Shown here: positions 21,137 to 51,870 of the stretch, in pieces
Position numbering within the stretch: the first letter of the stretch is position 1
How the letters are laid out: every line of letters starts with the position of its first letter
Assembly: GCA_020523885.1 (NCBI GenBank)
Contig: JAJAPY010000007.1
Location: 1 to 64,000 of the forward strand
Direction of reading: 5' to 3'
Source of the DNA: Candidatus Liberimonas magnetica
Lineage (GTDB): Bacteria; Elusimicrobiota; Endomicrobiia; Endomicrobiales; JAFGIL01
Length of the DNA: 64,000 nt
Notes under the pieces: generated by a model
What the model saw: only the letters and a program-made list of their open reading frames with translations
Told to the model about the DNA's origin: nothing
Database searches by the model: none
Translations under genes and position numbers: made by a program

Positions 21137-23053
21137 ATGGATAATTTTGTAAGAGCATCATCGCTTATGCAGCCTAATGATGAATATCTTTTTAAGGAAG
21201 GAAGCCATTTCAGGCTTTATAATATACTCGGCGCGCACTTAATTGAAGTTGACGGAATGAAAGGCGTGCAATTTGCAGTCTGGGCCCCGAATGCGGAAAA
21301 GATCACAGTTATCGGAGATTTTAACTTCTGGGATAAGGAAGCCCATCCTTTAAAAGCGCGCTGGGATGGTTCGGGGATATGGGAAGGTTTTATACCTGGC
21401 CTGGCGCAGGGCAGTATCTATAAATATTTTATAACTTCCCGTTTTAATAACTACAAGGTTGAAAAAGCCGATCCTCTGGCGTTCCATTACGAAACACCGC
21501 AGAAAACCGGCTCTATCGTATGGGGCCTGGATTATAAGTGGAATGATGCTGAATGGATGAAAGACAGGTTTAAAAAAAATAAATTTGCTTCTCCTTATGC
21601 TGTTTATGAAGTGCACCTTGGCTCATGGCGCAGGGTTCCGGAACAGGGGAACAGGCCGCTCAATTACAGGGAGACTGCCCACGAGCTTGCAGACTACTGT
21701 AAAGACATAGGTTTTACTCATGTGGAGTTCTTGCCTGTTATGGAGCATCCTTTTTACGGGTCCTGGGGTTATCAGACACTCGGGTACTTTGCCCCGACAA
21801 GCAGGTTCGGGACACCGCAGGACTTTATGTATTTAGTCGACTATATGCATCAAAACGGGATAGGCGTTATACTTGACTGGGTGCCCTCCCACTTTCCTTG
21901 CGACCAGTACGGGCTTTCATTTTTTGACGGGACGAACCTCTACGAGCATGAAGATATGAGAAAGGGTTTTCATCCTGACTGGAAAAGCAGCATATTTAAT
22001 TATGACAGGAATGAAGTAAAAAATTTTCTTTTGTCAAGCGCGTTGTTCTGGCTGGATAAATACCATGTTGACGGTATAAGGGTCGATGCTGTAGCTTCCA
22101 TGCTTTATCTTGATTATTCAAGGAAAGAAGGGGAATGGATGCCGAATAAGTATGGAGGCAGGGAAAATATAGAGGCCATAGAGTTTTTAAAACGCTTTAA
22201 CCATGTCGTTTTTGAAAATTACCCGGATGTGCAGACGATAGCCGAAGAGTCAACTGCCTGGCCCATGGTTTCAAAGCCTACCTATATGGGGGGCCTGGGT
22301 TTCGGCATGAAGTGGAATATGGGCTGGATGAACGATATGCTTAAATATTTTTCGGTTGACCCGCTGTTCAGGAAATATCATCAGGGGCAGATAACTTTCA
22401 GTTTTCTTTATGCTTTCGCGGAAAATTTCGTGCTGCCGTTCTCTCACGATGAAGTCTGCCAGGGAAAAGGCTCCCTGGTAGGCAAGATGCCGGGCGATGA
22501 ATGGCAGAGGTTTGCGAACTTAAGGGCCTTATTAGGGTACATGTACGGCCATCCTGGCAAGAAGCTTCTTTTTATGGGGTGTGAGTTCGGCCAGGTAAGG
22601 GAGTGGAACCATGACGAAAGTCTTGAGTGGCATGTACTTGGCTTTCATTTTCATAAAGGCATTCAGGATTGGGTTAGGGACTTGAACAAAATGTATAACT
22701 CAGAACCTGCGCTTTATGAGTTCGATTCTTCGTGGGAAGGTTTTGAATGGGTAGATTTCAGTGACAATGACCAAAGCATAATAAGCTTCATAAGAAAATC
22801 AAAAGACAGTAAAAGTATTGTGCTCTGCGTATATAACTTTACACCTGTATTAAGACAAAACTATCGTGTAGGCGTTCCCAGGGGAGGTTTCTGGAAAGAA
22901 ATGCTTAACAGCGACGCTTATAAATATTGCGGCGAACAAAGAGGTAACCTGGGCGGTTTTTATGCAGACTGGTGGCATGCACACGGCAGGCAGTTTTCTT
23001 TAAACCTTACTATTCCGCCCCTCGGCGCAGTGTTCATGAAGAGCGAAATTTAA
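21137..23053 (+). CDS. glgB: 1,4-alpha-glucan branching enzyme
   Basis: A 638-residue family GH13 enzyme that makes alpha-1,6 branches in glycogen. The N-terminal CBM48 beta sandwich (about 20-125) has FAVWAPNAEKITVIGDFN. The catalytic barrel contains DWVPSHFP, the nucleophile region GIRVDAVASML, the acid/base region TIAEEST and FSHDEV with the transition-state Asp. A C-terminal beta domain follows. The ATG at 21137 follows GGAG; a TTG two codons earlier is less likely. It lies 21 bases after the kinase gene, so transcription may be shared. The length is a little shorter than E. coli GlgB, which has an extra N-terminal domain. Confidence 0.95.
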   Translation: MDNFVRASSLMQPNDEYLFKEGSHFRLYNILGAHLIEVDGMKGVQFAVWAPNAEKITVIGDFNFWDKEAHPLKARWDGSGIWEGFIPGLAQGSIYKYFITSRFNNYKVEKADPLAFHYETPQKTGSIVWGLDYKWNDAEWMKDRFKKNKFASPYAVYEVHLGSWRRVPEQGNRPLNYRETAHELADYCKDIGFTHVEFLPVMEHPFYGSWGYQTLGYFAPTSRFGTPQDFMYLVDYMHQNGIGVILDWVPSHFPCDQYGLSFFDGTNLYEHEDMRKGFHPDWKSSIFNYDRNEVKNFLLSSALFWLDKYHVDGIRVDAVASMLYLDYSRKEGEWMPNKYGGRENIEAIEFLKRFNHVVFENYPDVQTIAEESTAWPMVSKPTYMGGLGFGMKWNMGWMNDMLKYFSVDPLFRKYHQGQITFSFLYAFAENFVLPFSHDEVCQGKGSLVGKMPGDEWQRFANLRALLGYMYGHPGKKLLFMGCEFGQVREWNHDESLEWHVLGFHFHKGIQDWVRDLNKMYNSEPALYEFDSSWEGFEWVDFSDNDQSIISFIRKSKDSKSIVLCVYNFTPVLRQNYRVGVPRGGFWKEMLNSDAYKYCGEQRGNLGGFYADWWHAHGRQFSLNLTIPPLGAVFMKSEI

Positions 23054-44164: not shown

Positions 44165-44225
44165 CAGACTCCTATTGGGGGGAGTAGCCGAAGCATCTAC
44201 AACGGGTGATTTTCGGCTATTTTGT
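44165..44225 (+). other. Structured element: terminator-like or riboswitch-like
   Basis: ACTCC-TATTGGGG-GGAGT (44168-44184) makes one short stem. TAGCCGAA (44185-44192) and TTCGGCTA (44212-44219) make a second with a 19-base loop and a T-rich tail. The simplest role is a terminator for the phosphatase transcript. GGGGAGTAGCC resembles the first conserved loop of yybP-ykoY (Mn2+) riboswitches, but the rest of that motif is not seen and no Mn transporter follows. The gap from here to 44330 is otherwise empty. Confidence 0.45.
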
Positions 44226-44330
44226 TGTTGGGGACTTGAAGCTTTGGGTAAGAATTTTAAAAAACTTTAAGAAAATATTTTTTATTTGGATGCAGAGTTG
44301 TAAAAAATGATACGTCTAATGAGGTAGAGC

Positions 44331-44918
44331 ATGAGGGATGTACGGAGTAAGGAAGATGACATTATTCATGATGTCCAAAACGGTAATATTGAAGCTTTCG
44401 ATGAGTTGGTAAAGTTATACTCAACTAAGATATTTTCGTTATGTTATTATTTTACATGTAATATTGCAGAAGCAGAAGACCTTTCGCAGGCTGTTTTCAT
44501 TCATGCACTAAAAGGTATTGGAGGTTTTAAGTTTAAATCAGCTTTTTCAACCTGGCTTCACCAAATAGCTGTAAATCTTTGGTATGATGCCTTGAGAAAA
44601 AACAAAAAAATAACGTATGTCTCTTATGATATTAATACAGGTAAAGATGAAGAAAGAACTCTGAAAGATGAAATAATTGATAGTATTGTCATTCCGGAAA
44701 TAAAAATGGAAAAAAAAGAGTTAGAAGAGCAAATAAAAAAAGCACTTAATGTAATTACTCCGGATCAACGTATCGCAATAGTGCTTAAATATATTGAAGG
44801 CAAATCTCTTGAAGAAATAAGTAATATTTGTAACTGCCCGATAGGTACGATAAGCGCAAGGCTTACAAGAGGAATAAAGGAAATAAGAAAACATCTTAAA
44901 CCTTATATAAACAAATAA
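44331..44918 (+). CDS. ECF-type RNA polymerase sigma factor
   Basis: A 195-residue group IV sigma factor. Region 2 (about 25-90) has FDELVKLYSTKIFSLCYYF and FSTWLHQIAVNLWYDALRK. Region 4 (about 135-190) has TPDQRIAIVLKYIEGKSLEE and the helix-turn-helix CNCPIGTISARLTRGIKEIR. The next gene encodes its likely anti-sigma factor, 11 bases away. The two genes after that encode exported proteins, so the sigma factor probably controls a cell-envelope regulon that includes its own operon. Confidence 0.9.
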   Translation: MRDVRSKEDDIIHDVQNGNIEAFDELVKLYSTKIFSLCYYFTCNIAEAEDLSQAVFIHALKGIGGFKFKSAFSTWLHQIAVNLWYDALRKNKKITYVSYDINTGKDEERTLKDEIIDSIVIPEIKMEKKELEEQIKKALNVITPDQRIAIVLKYIEGKSLEEISNICNCPIGTISARLTRGIKEIRKHLKPYINK

Positions 44919-44929
44919 GAGGAAAGAAA

Positions 44930-45811
44930 ATGAACTGTGAAAATATCCAGGACCTGCTTCAACTCTATATCGATAACAAACTTGATGCCGAGACAAAAAT
45001 GAAAATAGCAGAACACATTAAGCAGTGTAAAGAATGCTCTCAATTCTTAAATGAATTCAATGACACAATAGAAACACTGGGAAAATTGAAAGAAGTTAAA
45101 TTGCCGGCAGATTATTATTCCAAATTGAGTTTAAAACTTGCTGATGTCAGGAAAGAACCAATAAACAAGCAAAACCGGCTGTTTAAACCAACGATATATA
45201 TTCCTGCTTTATGTGTTTTTACCCTAATAATCTGTTTGGGATATTTTGTAAACAGCTCTAAGAAAAATGTACCGGAATCAAAAGTTGAATTAAAGGGAAA
45301 ATTGGTTTTAAGCAAACAAAAAAATGAAAAACTTGTATTTGCCAAAATTAGGGAAAATAAGATTAACGATGCAGCCGAACCTCAAAGTATTGCGATAAAA
45401 AGGACTGTTGAAATTGCAAAAATCCCTGAAGAAAATAATAAACAATTTATTCTAAGAGGTGCAGGAGCTAAATATACAGATAAAAAAATAATACAGGAGT
45501 GGCAGGGAATAAACAGCGGAATGAAGGATAAAAAGACGATTCTTATAAACGACAATACCCAATGGCTGAGATTAATGAAAGAGAGCCAGGTTGAGCCGGT
45601 ACTTCCAGAAATGGATTTTACAAAATACATGGTAATTGCTACATCCCTTGGCGAACAGAAGACAGGCGGGTACAGCATTCATATATCCAAAATCCGGGAA
45701 ACCGAAGAAAAACTTTACATTGATATGGTTGAAACTCATCCAAAACAAGGTACAGCAGCCACACAACAACTAACCCGGCCGTATCATATTGTTGTAATAG
45801 ATAAGGATTAA
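44930..45811 (+). CDS. Anti-sigma factor with periplasmic PrcB-like domain
   Basis: A 293-residue single-pass membrane protein. The cytoplasmic N-terminus is a zinc-finger anti-sigma domain (Cys3, His29, Cys33 and Cys36 in HIKQCKECS). A transmembrane helix spans about residues 88-107. The periplasmic part ends in a domain resembling PrcB_C (MDFTKYMVIATSLGEQKTGG; IDMVETHPKQGTAATQQLTR), known from treponemal protease complexes. It could sense a secreted or proteolytic state and release the sigma factor. The ribosome site GAGGAAAG precedes the ATG. Confidence 0.8.
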   Translation: MNCENIQDLLQLYIDNKLDAETKMKIAEHIKQCKECSQFLNEFNDTIETLGKLKEVKLPADYYSKLSLKLADVRKEPINKQNRLFKPTIYIPALCVFTLIICLGYFVNSSKKNVPESKVELKGKLVLSKQKNEKLVFAKIRENKINDAAEPQSIAIKRTVEIAKIPEENNKQFILRGAGAKYTDKKIIQEWQGINSGMKDKKTILINDNTQWLRLMKESQVEPVLPEMDFTKYMVIATSLGEQKTGGYSIHISKIRETEEKLYIDMVETHPKQGTAATQQLTRPYHIVVIDKD

Positions 45812-45848
45812 TATAAATTCATCCTAAAAAGGAACTTTTAATGGTTTT

Positions 45849-48683
45849 ATGAACTACAGAACTTTGTTGCTATCATTTTCAGTGTTATTTTTGCCAATTA
45901 TAGCCATAGCCAGCATTGTTACATTTGAACCGTACCCATGGGACGATCCGACGCATAAAGTTGACATACTTAACGGGGCGATCGTGACGCAGGGCGATAC
46001 AAGCCTTCCTGTGATGAAATTCAGGTTAAAAACAGATACATCAGAAGCTGCCTGGTCAAAGATAAGGGTTGAGCGTATCGGGCAGGGTGCGGCCGGTCAG
46101 AATTCAGGCGGCAGTAATAGCGATATCGCTCATGTGAAAATCTTTAAAGATTCAAACGGAGATGAAAAATTTAATGCAGGAGACACACTTATTTCTTCAG
46201 GCATTGATAAATTTCCGCTTGATGTAGTGGGTCCGGCCTGCGATATTACTTTGGCACAGGTTCAGACCCTAGGTACTGTACCTCAAGTTTATTTCGTTGT
46301 CTATGATATAGCTACAACAGCTTATTCAGGCAATAGTATAGGCGTAAAAATAAAAGACTACTCAAGCCTTACAGTTGATGCCCCTAGCAGTGTTGCAGTA
46401 TTTTCTACGTCTGCGCCATTTCAAGCTGGAGGGTGGTTCCAGAGTTCATATGCTACTATACTTCCTATAAGAGTGAAGGTAGAATGCCAGAATTTGGCGC
46501 CCGAAGTTAAGCTGCCGGGGGATAAAAATATTCCTATCCTGAAAGCTAAATTTGCTTCAGAATCAAATACTGTAATTTTATCTTCCATAACTGTTTATCA
46601 GACTGGCGATATAAGCCGGCCCCAAAGCGACCGGGATTGGTATTTGGGTGTAGGCGACGGGGATTTCTCTGCCATTAAACTCTGGAGAGATGATAGTGAC
46701 GGGGTTTTTGACGAAACAAAAGATACACAAATTGATAGTATCCCGAGCAAGGAGTCGCTAATAGATGCCGCAGTTATACTTAGGACTGATGCTGCTCCCA
46801 TCCGCTGTTTCTCAGGTGGCCTGGCCACTTTGTATTGCGGAGACCTCATTAATCAAAAAGGACAGAATTATTTTATTACCGCTGATATAGGTACAACTGA
46901 CCTTGGAGGAAAGCCTGTATTCCAGCATTTAGCAGGACTTGAGATATCATCTTACTCTGATATTAGTATAGTGCCTCACACATCAGTGTCAAGCGCAAGT
47001 AACGCCTTTCCGTATATATCGAGCAGTTTACGTTTAGGTGATGTGATTATATTAAATGTGAACATAAGGCCGGACAAATCAGGGGTGCATACCGAAGCCT
47101 GGTGGAACTCTACCACAAAAGTAAGCGTAAAATGGGATATAATCAAAGTGGCGCAAGCTCAAATAGTATCGTACATGACAGCTATAGGGAGCAATCCGGA
47201 TCTGGAAGATATGACAATAGGCATGGGACAGAACGGATGGTTATCTACTGGCCCTCAATCAATTGATATAAGCGAGCTTGCTTTGAGCGAGCCTATGGTG
47301 ACATTCCTGGCAGCTGATTTGTCTGCAACACAAGGTAATGGAACAAATATTCAGGTTTACCTGCCTGCAGGCCATCCAAGGATAAATACAAGTGCTACGT
47401 CTGGTTTTGACTCTGCCGGGTCTATTGTAATAGGAAAGGAGATAATAGGTTATACAGATACAAGCGCTGATTCATTTAGGAATATAACACGAGGCCTGCA
47501 TGGAACAAGTATAGAAGCTCATAGTAAGTCTGATCAGGTAACAAATCATGCTTACTTCGTTAAGGTTAAAGCTGTTTCAAGCCTGGCAGGCATAACACCT
47601 CAAGCATGGGGAGTAATAAAAATAGACATGTCGCCTCCTTCCAGCCCTACAAATGTATTACCTAGTTACGTAGTATCAGGGGTTCCTGCTGCGGGCGGAA
47701 AATATGAAGTTAAATGGGTCACTGCAAAGGATTTTGAATCAGGTGTAGAACAATACGAAATTCAGGAATATTCGGATACAAACTTTATATGGAAAACTAT
47801 TGACGCTGTTACAGGCGACAAGAATAGCATAAATGTTGGTGACGGAATTGCTTCTGATATTGATGGTACGGCAATAGAGGATAACCCGAGAAACGCGAAC
47901 CACTTGTATTGGTACCGCGTGCGTGCAAAAAACTATGCAGGCAGCTGGGGTCCGTGGTCAGCGCAATCTAGTAATCTTGACTCAGCAAATAATAATCATA
48001 TAATTAATGATAATGGAATAAAAATCGATATCCCAACAGGTACACTAACTACATCAGCAAGCATTGAAATAAGCACGCCCAGTGTTTCAAGCCTTCCGGC
48101 ACTATCTAATGATTCAAAACTGAAAGGCAGTTCCAAAGCTGTAGAAATAAAACTTAGTGACGGGACTACAAGTTTAGCTAAAGAAATAACTCTGACTATT
48201 CTATATACGGCAGAGGATGTTGGCGGATTAAATGAAAATAATTTAAAACTGTTTTATTTTGACACTGCTAAATCCATGTGGGTTTTAATACCTAATTCTA
48301 CGGTGGATACTTCAAGGAAAGTTGTTACTGCAAATGTCAACCATCTGACTATATTCAGGATCATGGAATATGCGGCTATAACCAATGCAATTGAAGACTT
48401 GAGCAATTATCCTAACCCGTTTAAAGCCGGGGTTGGCTCCACAAAGATAAGGTATACATTAAAACAAGACAGCGACGTTAAGATAACTATTTATGACCTG
48501 ATAGGTGGTTTGGTACTCGAAAAAAGCATCCCGAGAGGGGTACCGGGTTCTTCTGTCCAGGGGCCGAATGAAGTATCATGGGACGGGAGAAATGGCAGCG
48601 GAAAGATCGTAGATATAGGCGCATACATCTGTGTTGTTGAATGTGACGGAACGAACATGAAAACAAAAATCGGTGTCAAGTAG
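45849..48683 (+). CDS. Giant secreted protein with FlgD/type IX-like C-terminus
   Basis: A 944-residue exported protein with a signal peptide (about 1-22). Residues about 30-440 hold repeats of beta-rich modules with Asp-rich loops (FKDSNGDEKFNAGDTLI; WRDDSDGVFDETKDT), resembling Ca2+-binding loops of cell-surface proteins. A fibronectin III-like module lies near 590-715 (WVTAKDFESGVEQYEIQEYS). The C-terminal 85 residues form a FlgD-Ig/T9SS sorting-like domain: YPNPFKAGVGSTKIRYTLKQ and VSWDGRNGSGKIVDIGAYI. It is encoded between the anti-sigma factor and a PorV-type protein, suggesting surface export. The ligand is unknown. Confidence 0.78.
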   Translation: MNYRTLLLSFSVLFLPIIAIASIVTFEPYPWDDPTHKVDILNGAIVTQGDTSLPVMKFRLKTDTSEAAWSKIRVERIGQGAAGQNSGGSNSDIAHVKIFKDSNGDEKFNAGDTLISSGIDKFPLDVVGPACDITLAQVQTLGTVPQVYFVVYDIATTAYSGNSIGVKIKDYSSLTVDAPSSVAVFSTSAPFQAGGWFQSSYATILPIRVKVECQNLAPEVKLPGDKNIPILKAKFASESNTVILSSITVYQTGDISRPQSDRDWYLGVGDGDFSAIKLWRDDSDGVFDETKDTQIDSIPSKESLIDAAVILRTDAAPIRCFSGGLATLYCGDLINQKGQNYFITADIGTTDLGGKPVFQHLAGLEISSYSDISIVPHTSVSSASNAFPYISSSLRLGDVIILNVNIRPDKSGVHTEAWWNSTTKVSVKWDIIKVAQAQIVSYMTAIGSNPDLEDMTIGMGQNGWLSTGPQSIDISELALSEPMVTFLAADLSATQGNGTNIQVYLPAGHPRINTSATSGFDSAGSIVIGKEIIGYTDTSADSFRNITRGLHGTSIEAHSKSDQVTNHAYFVKVKAVSSLAGITPQAWGVIKIDMSPPSSPTNVLPSYVVSGVPAAGGKYEVKWVTAKDFESGVEQYEIQEYSDTNFIWKTIDAVTGDKNSINVGDGIASDIDGTAIEDNPRNANHLYWYRVRAKNYAGSWGPWSAQSSNLDSANNNHIINDNGIKIDIPTGTLTTSASIEISTPSVSSLPALSNDSKLKGSSKAVEIKLSDGTTSLAKEITLTILYTAEDVGGLNENNLKLFYFDTAKSMWVLIPNSTVDTSRKVVTANVNHLTIFRIMEYAAITNAIEDLSNYPNPFKAGVGSTKIRYTLKQDSDVKITIYDLIGGLVLEKSIPRGVPGSSVQGPNEVSWDGRNGSGKIVDIGAYICVVECDGTNMKTKIGVK

Positions 48684-48687
48684 CTTT

Positions 48688-50715
48688 ATGAAAAAGATAT
48701 CAAGCATATTACTATTATTGGGATGTTTACTGTTGTTTAGTAACCACTCTTTCTCAAAAGATGCCGATGGGGGGTTGCCCGGGTATTTTCTTGACCTTGG
48801 GATAGGAGCAAGAGCTTTGTCTATGGGGCGCAGCTTTGTGGCTGTTAGTAATGATGAATCTTCGATATATTGGAATCCGGCAGGATTGGTAAATATAAAA
48901 AGCAGTGAAGTGTCCGCAACATATATTTCGTTGTTTGAAAATACCAGCTATAATTCTATAGGATTTGCCTGCCCGGCAAAACACGGATTAGCATTCGGCG
49001 CCGGTTTTATACAACTGGGTAGTGACGGAATAATCAGGCGCGATGAAAACAATAACCCGATGGGAGAAATACGGGACAGGAGCACAGCTTACTTATTTTC
49101 AAGCGGGTACTCAATAAACGAAAAAGCTTCTATCGGTAGTTCCCTTAAATATGTTAATAAGCAGTTTGATGATATTGATAAAAACTGGGCCGGGCTTGAT
49201 ATATCTGCGTTATATTCTCCTATAGATAAGCTGAGTGTGGGTATAAATTTACATAATATTGCTACCAGGGGCACTGAATGGACAGATGGCAGGAGCTACG
49301 ATGTACCGATCGAAACAGATTTCGGGATAGCATACAAGCTGTTTTGTGATAGATTAACCATTGCTGCTGATTTTGACTCGAAATCCAGTCAAATATTAGA
49401 GTTACATACAGGCATAGAATGGAGCATAAACAAATTGCTAACGTTCAGGGGCGGTTATGACGAAAGGGATATAACTACTGGCATTGGGATTTCTCTGAAA
49501 AGCTATCGATTGGATTACGCACTGCTGAACCACCCGCTTGGAATGAGCCAGAGAGCGACATTCTCTTATCGTTTCGGAGAAAAAGCAGGAAAAAATAACA
49601 TCAGAAATAAGCCTGGCATAGTTGTGAAAAAAGGAAAAGAATATGATACAGCGATAAATACAATGAAAGAGATACCGATGGCGATATATCATATCTTCCA
49701 TGACAAAGATATATCTGTCATTAATGTCCGGATCAAAAATAATCTCACAAATGAAACAAAGTTCAGGATAAATTACAGGATAGGACTGAAAAATCCAAGT
49801 GAAGTAAAAGAGGTCAATGTACCCTGTAATGAAACTGTAGATGTTCAGATCATTCCATCATTTACCCAGGAAGATATACGGCAAATCGCGGTTGTCCCTA
49901 CTCCTACGACGATTTTTATAGATGTGGAAAGCATCAGCAGGAAAGGAAAACCTCATAAGCTGTCAAATGAATCGTTTCCTATAATCCTTTTGCCTTATGA
50001 CCAATTTACTCCTCAAATAATCGATGCGAGAGGTAAAACGATCGACTTGCTTGACACGCTTGTTAATTGGATCACGTATAATGACCGTAATTTAGGCGCT
50101 ATAATCAACAAGGCAAGCGAAAGAGGGGCGAATTTGAATCCGCCGGTTAAAATTGTGGGATTTCAATCGCCTACGGCATTTACAAAAAAGCCGGATGATA
50201 ACAGGACTCTGGAACAACGATATAGCGATTATCTTTCACAGGTAAAGTTGATATATGATACCTTGAAAGACGATTATAAAATTACTTATATCAACCAACC
50301 TGTTGCCTACGGTAATTCACAAAGAATAAAGCTTCCTTTCGAAACACTAAAAAATAAGGGAAATTGTATCGAGCTTTCTGTGTTGTTTGCCAGCCTTTTG
50401 GAAAGTATTGAAATGGAACCTATTCTTGTAATATTTAAAGAGGACAGGCACGCTGCTATAGCCTGGAAAGTTTCCGGTGAAGGTAAGGCAAGGTACAGCA
50501 TGCTTGAAACAAACGTATTCGGCGAGGAATTTAGGAAAGTGGTTGAAAAAGGTGATAAACTCGTTAAAGATAATGACCTGACATCGGAATTTTTAAGCGG
50601 TAATGATATAACTTTTGATGAAAATGGTGTTTATAAAAAGAATTCAAATGTTATATTATTTAACATAAGTAAAATCAGGAAGCGTTTACCTCCCAGCCCA
50701 TATATACCACAATAA
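48688..50715 (+). CDS. PorV-type barrel fused to a transglutaminase-like domain
   Basis: A 675-residue exported protein with a signal peptide (about 1-23). Residues about 28-310 are a UPF0164/PorV barrel (DLGIGARALSMGRSFVAV; SIYWNPAGLVN; RGGYDERDITTGIGI). Residues about 330-430 look like a beta sandwich. Residues about 440-640 carry a transglutaminase/papain-like core: Cys560 in KGNCIELSVLFASLLES, His588 in EDRHAAIAW and Glu607 in MLETNVF. The ATG at 48688 lies 4 bases after the preceding stop. The family usually lacks such an extension. It may process or crosslink the secreted protein encoded upstream; this is inference. Confidence 0.78.
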   Translation: MKKISSILLLLGCLLLFSNHSFSKDADGGLPGYFLDLGIGARALSMGRSFVAVSNDESSIYWNPAGLVNIKSSEVSATYISLFENTSYNSIGFACPAKHGLAFGAGFIQLGSDGIIRRDENNNPMGEIRDRSTAYLFSSGYSINEKASIGSSLKYVNKQFDDIDKNWAGLDISALYSPIDKLSVGINLHNIATRGTEWTDGRSYDVPIETDFGIAYKLFCDRLTIAADFDSKSSQILELHTGIEWSINKLLTFRGGYDERDITTGIGISLKSYRLDYALLNHPLGMSQRATFSYRFGEKAGKNNIRNKPGIVVKKGKEYDTAINTMKEIPMAIYHIFHDKDISVINVRIKNNLTNETKFRINYRIGLKNPSEVKEVNVPCNETVDVQIIPSFTQEDIRQIAVVPTPTTIFIDVESISRKGKPHKLSNESFPIILLPYDQFTPQIIDARGKTIDLLDTLVNWITYNDRNLGAIINKASERGANLNPPVKIVGFQSPTAFTKKPDDNRTLEQRYSDYLSQVKLIYDTLKDDYKITYINQPVAYGNSQRIKLPFETLKNKGNCIELSVLFASLLESIEMEPILVIFKEDRHAAIAWKVSGEGKARYSMLETNVFGEEFRKVVEKGDKLVKDNDLTSEFLSGNDITFDENGVYKKNSNVILFNISKIRKRLPPSPYIPQ

Positions 50716-50902: not shown

Positions 50903-51442
50903 ATGTTGGGTTTAGAAAAAGTACTATTTTTTACAAACCATCAAAAGATTCTTAAATTTCTTTTGGATAATCCTGAACAAAAATATTATGATCGCGAGAT
51001 TGCCAATATTACGGGAGTTAGCCGCGCAGGTGCAAATTTTGCCTTGCGCGACCTGGCAAAAATCGGTATAATTGATAAAGAGAAAAAAGGAAAAATGAAC
51101 TTTTATCATGTTTCCCTTGTTACAGCAATAGTCAAAGAACTTAAAACTCTTTTAAATATTCTGACAATCAGTGAATTAATCGATACAGCCAGCGAATATT
51201 CTAGTAAAATAGTTCTTTTCGGAAGCGCCTTAAAAGGCGAAAATACTCAAGAAAGCGATTTGGATATACTTTTTATAACAGATGATAAAGAGAAAGTCCA
51301 TTCAATTATACTAAAAGATAAAAACAGGGAAAAAATACAACCTGTTATTGCCACTCAAAACGATTTTATAAAGATGAAAAAAGAAAACCCAGTTTTTTAT
51401 AACGAAATTAACAACGGGAAAATATTGTGGATAAAAAAGTAA
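50903..51442 (+). CDS. Winged-helix/MNT nucleotidyltransferase antitoxin
   Basis: A 179-residue two-domain protein. Residues 1-75 form a winged-helix DNA-binding domain (YYDREIANITGVSRAGANFA is the helix-turn-helix; IGIIDKEKKGKMNFYHV is the wing). Residues about 95-179 form a minimal nucleotidyltransferase with LFGSALKGENTQESDLDILF (the GS-x10-DxD site). The usual MNT antitoxin lacks the DNA-binding part, so this version probably represses its own operon through the dyads upstream. The ribosome site GAGAGG is close before the ATG. It overlaps the HEPN gene by 16 bases. Confidence 0.83.
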   Translation: MLGLEKVLFFTNHQKILKFLLDNPEQKYYDREIANITGVSRAGANFALRDLAKIGIIDKEKKGKMNFYHVSLVTAIVKELKTLLNILTISELIDTASEYSSKIVLFGSALKGENTQESDLDILFITDDKEKVHSIILKDKNREKIQPVIATQNDFIKMKKENPVFYNEINNGKILWIKK

Positions 51443-51870
51443 ATATAGAGTTTCAAAAAGGATTGGAAAAGAAACGGATTGTTCATTTTGCTGAAGCTAT
51501 GAATTCTGTTGATATTGAAATACAATCCGCCAAGGACGATTTATCCGAAGCTTCGGACAGATTTAGCAACAAAAAGTATAAATATGCAACTATAACGGCA
51601 TATTATTCAATGTTTCATTCCTCTAGAGCTTTGGTATATTCCAAAGGGTATAGGGAAAAGAGTCACTATTATTTGCTGGTAGCTATTAAAGCACTGTTTG
51701 TTGAAAAGGGTGAAATTCCGGAAAACCTGTTAAACGAATTTCACGAAGCTATGGTTTTAAGAGAAAATGCTGATTATAGTGCGCAATTCTCAAAAGAGGG
51801 TGCCGAAGCAGCAATTTCAACTGCAAAGGATTTTCTTCATTTATCAGCAAAAATACTCGGAAAGAAATAA
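51427..51870 (+). CDS. HEPN-domain protein, probable toxin (second copy)
   Basis: A 147-residue helical HEPN protein. The core helix reads YKYATITAYYSMFHSSRALVY and the putative active-site motif is RENADY near residue 117 (R-x4-Y form). The start is GTG inside the upstream MNT gene, so expression depends on the antitoxin gene. In this pair the antitoxin comes first, the reverse of the pair at 1.1 kb, and the two HEPN proteins are not close relatives. The role is presumably RNA cleavage. Confidence 0.8.
   Translation: MDKKVNIEFQKGLEKKRIVHFAEAMNSVDIEIQSAKDDLSEASDRFSNKKYKYATITAYYSMFHSSRALVYSKGYREKSHYYLLVAIKALFVEKGEIPENLLNEFHEAMVLRENADYSAQFSKEGAEAAISTAKDFLHLSAKILGKK

Follow-up and report, generated by a model that had tools for sequence, protein, structure and literature searches.

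A PorV-transglutaminase-like fusion encoded with an ECF sigma factor, its anti-sigma factor and a secreted cargo: a candidate surface-to-cytoplasm signalling circuit in Elusimicrobiota

In the FecA-FecR-FecI system, an outer-membrane barrel and a periplasmic module relay the state of the cell surface to an inner-membrane anti-sigma factor and an ECF sigma factor (PMC9249621), an arrangement that the locus described here resembles. Unlike FecA, the barrel encoded here is of the PorV/FadL type, carries a C-terminal Ig-like and transglutaminase-like (Ig-TG) portion, and has no Pfam match to a TonB plug or an N-terminal signalling domain; unlike FecR, the anti-sigma factor combines zf-HC2 with a PrcB_C or DUF1318-like domain. 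The locus further differs from the Fec system in having a candidate protease active site and a sigma promoter that its sequence motif predicts to be autoregulated. LapG is a protease of the transglutaminase type. Acting in the periplasm (PMC4694147), it is analogous to the transglutaminase-type cysteine protease that we propose acts on an envelope protein here, with the difference that the TG domain of our locus is fused to an outer-membrane barrel and has an anti-sigma factor as its proposed target; Pfam scans gave no match to the LapG family. Regulated periplasmic cutting of a membrane anti-sigma factor, as proposed here, is known from DegS-RseA (PMC8103513), where the serine protease DegS makes the cut; the candidate enzyme here is a cysteine protease carried by an outer-membrane barrel. 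In P. gingivalis, a PorV-using protein with a type IX C-terminal sorting domain (CTD) provides input to a sigma pathway (PMC7712824): in PorA-PorXY-SigP, as in our proposal, a PorV-using CTD surface protein affects an ECF sigma factor, there that of the type IX genes, but through a two-component relay, whereas the present operon has a direct anti-sigma factor and no sensor kinase. Our literature search found no work joining PorV, transglutaminase and anti-sigma, and none joining cell-surface signaling, type IX secretion and a sigma factor; titles and the opening parts of abstracts gave no link between PrcB and anti-sigma.

The locus lies on contig C7 of the 3.39-Mb genome (G000) of an uncultured Elusimicrobia bacterium, in the 64,000-nucleotide stretch analysed here (the window; Table 1). 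A sequence-only reading had placed at these positions a four-gene operon that appeared to form a self-contained, closed circuit. Coordinates and domain families confirm the operon as real: four near-contiguous genes share one strand, with 11 bases between sigma and anti-sigma, 37 bases between anti-sigma and cargo, and an 11-base overlap of cargo and fusion. The order is more than chance, because sigma, anti-sigma, cargo and PorV-Ig-TG recur in this sequence at G000:C8 and in other Elusimicrobiota genomes. This conserved order, together with a promoter-like motif that is unique in the genome at up to two mismatches, also supports the notion of a self-contained circuit. Scans for sigma70-like promoters and terminators stayed at chance level. 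By eye, an inverted repeat (TAGCCGAA/TTCGGCTA) followed by a T-rich stretch is visible upstream of the promoter motif (window 44185-44219), a possible terminator of the preceding operon. Directly downstream of the operon and outside it, window 50903-51870 encodes a nucleotidyltransferase (with HTH) and a HEPN protein, resembling an MNT-HEPN toxin-antitoxin pair.

Table 1. Positions of the operon's genes, domains and candidate sites in the window.
Feature	Position	Strand	Basis or remark
Candidate autoregulatory ECF promoter, TGCAGAGTT-N13-CGTCTAAT	44291..44320	+	Conserved upstream of the family's sigma genes
ECF sigma factor, 195 aa	44331..44918	+	Pfam Sigma70_r2 and r4_2; NCBIfam sigma70-ECF
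Anti-sigma factor	44930..45811	+	zf-HC2, predicted TM helix, PrcB_C
R176-G177-A178-G179 motif in linker ahead of the anti-sigma C-terminal domain; candidate TG cleavage or docking site	45455..45466	+	Alignments; linker pLDDT
Secreted cargo, 944 aa	45849..48683	+	Open reading frame, Pfam scan
FlgD/type IX-A-like CTD of cargo, residues 854-932	48408..48644	+	FlgD_ig; own-genome CTD profile
PorV-Ig-TG fusion, 680 aa	48673..50715	+	675 aa if ATG at 48688 is used
PorV-type beta-barrel, residues 37-301	48781..49575	+	NF033709; Foldseek
Ig-like domain, residues 318-440, predicted periplasmic	49624..49992	+	AlphaFold2 strands; kept with TG in all homologues
TG domain, residues 456-671	50038..50685	+	AlphaFold2, profiles, triad
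TG triad codons C565, H593, E612	50365-50367, 50449-50451, 50506-50508	+	

The sigma factor is a plain ECF protein by Pfam and NCBIfam (Sigma70_r2/r4, sigma70-ECF). Its neighbour comprises zf-HC2 (residues 3-36), a single membrane-spanning helix predicted at about 94-108 and, on the periplasmic side, PrcB_C (234-290 in Pfam; 196-291 as NCBIfam PrcB). With sigma2/sigma4, an adjacent zf-HC2 anti-sigma factor and a promoter motif all present, sequence features place the pair in the ECF sigma/membrane anti-sigma class. Aligning the regions ahead of the family's own sigma genes yielded the motif TGCAGRGTT-N13-CGTCTAAT, which in the window positions CGTC 18 bases before the sigma start. The 3.39-Mb genome contains a single match at 0 mismatches and no other at up to two, while matches at three mismatches equal those of the reversed control. 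Exact matches also occur in two genomes that were not used for the derivation (controls 0): in G334 ahead of sigma, ahead of the cargo with one mismatch, and also upstream of another CTD-cargo/PorV pair; in G340 ahead of the cargo. The operon at G000:C8 has a diverged version, TGTCTAAA, and the C7 and C8 operons may therefore have separate promoters.

The cargo's CTD, read from sequence as FlgD/type IX-like, is supported by its match to FlgD_ig (E=7.4e-6; 26.3 bits, just below the 27-bit Pfam cut-off) and to a CTD profile built from its own genome (E 2e-20); Por_Secre_tail matched weakly. Two other frames of this genome stand out. One, of 7312 aa and ending near 21900 on G000:C10 (L022), putatively encodes a giant cargo that bears a CTD, and its many repeats are related to the N-terminal region of the window cargo; the other (L053:6200-9238, on C6) encodes a 1013-aa protein with eight FlgD/CTD-like domains in tandem.

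The fetched loci L021-L054 and the window together hold 33 PorV-family and 39 CTD genes. Type A-like CTDs adjoin PorV-type barrels: 26 of the 33 PorV genes directly follow a CTD gene, 2 precede one, 4 are without one and 1 lies at an edge, a count rather than a random sample because the regions were picked by PorV or CTD matches. Cargo genes likewise adjoin their own shuttle barrels in the F. johnsoniae type B CTD/PorP-SprF pairs (PMC12618676, PMC9143113), which differ in both CTD and barrel type. About 30 other PorV genes of G000 lack a TG domain, and besides the window only the C8 copy among the PorV-CTD pairs has one. The large PorV expansion suggests cargo-specific shuttles outside Bacteroidota. 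Of the remaining type IX components, the SprA/Sov translocon may be represented by a 1809-aa SprA-like protein (163.7 bits, E 3.6e-48, against a cut-off of 200); a search for the GldL/PorL motor found no match in the genome, and its positive controls gave no match either. No gingipain/PorU-type peptidase C25 (PF01364) was found in the whole genome, as the sequence-only reading had noted for PorU-like genes in this region, and the same search was positive in two Bacteroidota.

A PorV-type barrel in the fusion was upheld on two counts. Residues 39-301 match the PorV_fam model NF033709 with 122.5 bits (NCBIfam cut-off 90), which assigns them to the PorV/PorQ family, and the top Foldseek matches are the F. 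johnsoniae PorV structures 8gl6_F and 6h3i_F. The AlphaFold2 model (pLDDT 78) shows a 14-strand barrel (78-301), then the Ig-like part, then the TG part, in which a helix begins at Cys565 and subsequent strands carry His593 and Glu612, an order typical of TG domains. These residues are the Cys560-His588-Glu607 triad proposed from sequence, there numbered from the ATG at 48688, so the structure prediction agrees with the proposed triad. This and the anti-sigma model are of single chains, built on 12-row and 4-row alignments, respectively. PF01841 matched the window TG domain below cut-off (E 0.0066-0.016) and 8 of 11 Ig-TG family members weakly (best E 2.7e-4), the best 50 Foldseek matches for the fusion covered the barrel alone with no TG fold among them, and a search of solved structures with the Ig-TG profile reached no better than E 0.91, for a transglutaminase-like protein. 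The TG fold is thus a predicted assignment, drawn from weak profiles, the triad motif and the element order. The anti-phage ProA model NF058533 matched the TG region of all 11 Ig-TG members (in the window, model positions 88-233), but the rest of this 1903-position model's architecture is absent from them.

Some PorV relatives carry OmpA, LysM, CsgG or TPR modules C-terminal to the barrel, which supports a periplasmic C-terminus; the sequences look as if these modules anchored the barrels or coupled them to the periplasm. Because paralogues bear OmpA and LysM modules at the barrel end occupied here by Ig-TG, the TG domain is predicted to be periplasmic. Examples among PorV or PorP-like barrels are L027:8723-10474 (OmpA and TPR), L043:5542-7536 (LysM) and L033:7976-9937 (CsgG-like).

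Across the phylum, 13 of 341 genomes, all metagenome assemblies, have Ig-TG matches, three of them weak and partial. The full order of sigma, anti-sigma, CTD cargo and PorV-Ig-TG is found at G000:C8, in G299 and G297, and in G334 once its region is extended. In G339 and G340 the cargo and PorV-Ig-TG genes lie at contig edges, and a different contig of G339 carries its sigma and anti-sigma genes together with the beginning of a large open frame; in G338 the same two genes follow an unrelated, VWA-like gene (by eye). The modules also occur in other combinations. G211, G172 and G210 encode sigma, anti-sigma and a beta-propeller-Ig-TG protein without PorV or cargo, and G297:C205 encodes sigma, anti-sigma, a small-barrel-Ig-TG protein and cargo, the small barrel (by eye from sequence) standing in PorV's place. 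From the propeller and small-barrel loci it follows that sigma, anti-sigma and Ig-TG are the constant set, with barrel and cargo variable. Ig-TG travels with the sigma/anti-sigma pair and not with the cargo, and the cargo is not always the input. Between G339 and G340, of the same genus, the TG domains are 62% identical and the barrels 25%, and the distances among sigma, anti-sigma and TG sequences correlate (Mantel p <0.001). A contig scan with a two-sequence Ig-TG profile gave zero matches; an 11-sequence profile recovered Elusimicrobia loci and, elsewhere, remote TG relatives only, whose listed neighbours included no sigma factor and weak anti-sigma profile matches at L113 and L114 only. 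G340 also has three operons of sigma, anti-sigma, CTD cargo and PorV without TG (L183, L184, L185), in which the anti-sigma C-terminal region differs; pairs of cargo and PorV may more widely be under the control of ECF sigma factors.

The C-terminal domains of TG-linked anti-sigma factors vary (PrcB_C or DUF1318-like), yet directly before them, in a flexible linker, stands the motif RG(A/S/T)(G/K), which reads RGTK in place of RGAG at G000:C8. The motif is present in 10 of 10 TG-linked anti-sigma factors and in 0 of 14 controls from the same phylum (12 combine zf-HC2 with PrcB_C), both small, related samples, the controls gathered by similarity rather than random draw; since the pattern was derived from the positives first, the contrast is a description and not a blind test. 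Shuffled sequences contain it at about 0.4% per protein, and by eye it is absent from three further G340 anti-sigma factors. AlphaFold gives residues 166-179 of the window's anti-sigma factor a pLDDT <50, and the predicted disorder of the linker fits either a cut site or a docking site.

Among 13 Ig-TG copies compared for the triad, only two have another residue in place of Cys, a degenerate tandem copy of G297 and the copy of G338, and G338 alone has lost His. The acidic position holds Glu or Asp in all but G338 (Ala) and G172 (Gly). Beside RGxG anti-sigma factors the triad is intact, with the exception of the Glu to Gly change in G172. In G338 the triad is dead (C to S, H to T, E to A) with cargo and PorV retained, and this one genome, 86% complete, yielded no cognate sigma, no RGxG anti-sigma and no promoter match at 0-1 mismatches. 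G340 is an exception to the pairing of TG with sigma: although TG is intact and the promoter motif stands ahead of the cargo, the 91%-complete assembly yielded neither a cognate sigma nor a cognate anti-sigma. Its sigma-like matches spanning most of the length share about 34% identity with the sigma of G339, and hence the cognate sigma is missing or unassembled.

The sequences themselves show the architecture, a conserved order of genes, swapped modules, the association of the motif with TG, a joint loss in one genome and a promoter-like motif unique to this operon; CTD-barrel docking, proteolysis, its site and its trigger are our inference. The ECF sigma factor would transcribe its own operon, and the anti-sigma factor would keep it at the inner membrane with the RGAG linker exposed in the periplasm. 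The cargo, a surface protein, would leave the cell by type IX-like export and dock through its CTD onto its own PorV barrel, at the loops that face outwards. In F. johnsoniae PorV the CTD-binding loops are extracellular (PMC10994853). Ig-TG would form the barrel's periplasmic tail and be a cysteine protease of transglutaminase fold. How it reaches the anti-sigma factor would depend on the sensor part: the state of the cargo or a ligand on PorV here, a small barrel or beta-propeller fused directly to Ig-TG in other genomes. Once active, TG would cleave the anti-sigma factor at or near RG(A/S/T)G, freeing sigma to produce more cargo and receptor. We favour this self-contained surface-to-cytoplasm circuit, with the anti-sigma factor as the substrate that TG cuts, at moderate confidence.

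The sequence-only reading had given TG a different task, cleaving the CTD or attaching the cargo at the surface in place of PorU. The overlap of the cargo and PorV-TG genes and the lack of a PF01364 peptidase would suit such processing, but TG is expected on the periplasmic side, Ig-TG occurs without cargo or PorV at three loci, all PorV-CTD pairs of G000 other than the window's and the C8 copy do without TG, and in G338 the triad has died beside a retained cargo-PorV pair. These findings rule out a PorU substitute as the main reading, and we consider it very unlikely; support extends to the circuit, the barrel, the CTD of the cargo and the TG fold and triad, but not to the PorU job. Some transglutaminase folds are cross-linking enzymes, and ECF operons frequently carry their target genes, both of which would accord with TG as a mere output gene of the sigma regulon, serving envelope maintenance or cross-linking, and RGxG as a general site-1 protease site. 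This is improbable given that RGxG is absent from the 14 control anti-sigma factors, among them PrcB_C proteins that would likewise need a general site-1 protease.

Ig-TG might instead dock on the RGxG linker without cutting it, as a binding switch like the FecA signalling domain with FecR, or shield the linker from another protease. The association of motif and TG suits binding as well as cutting, the G172 TG lacks its Glu, and PupB/PupR-type protection offers a precedent (PMC9249621). Against this, only G338 departs from an otherwise invariant His, and only G338 and the degenerate copy of G297 from an otherwise invariant Cys, and we regard docking or shielding as unlikely, though less so than either reading above. 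A broader view, which we hold tentatively and at somewhat less than even confidence, is that cargo-loaded PorV, small barrels and beta-propellers are interchangeable sensors on one Ig-TG protease that cuts its cognate RG(A/S/T)G linker, together a modular class of outer-envelope signalling in Elusimicrobiota. The secretion shuttle would then double as a receptor that reports the state of its cargo to its own sigma factor.

Four testable elements follow from the circuit reading: the protease, the motif in its substrate, the region where it cuts and the promoter. If it is correct, these bacteria would possess a surface-to-sigma route whose outer-membrane part bears its own candidate protease, and type IX-like secretion would be tied directly to an ECF switch. 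Attention is also drawn to an enlarged repertoire of cargo-PorV pairs beyond Bacteroidota.
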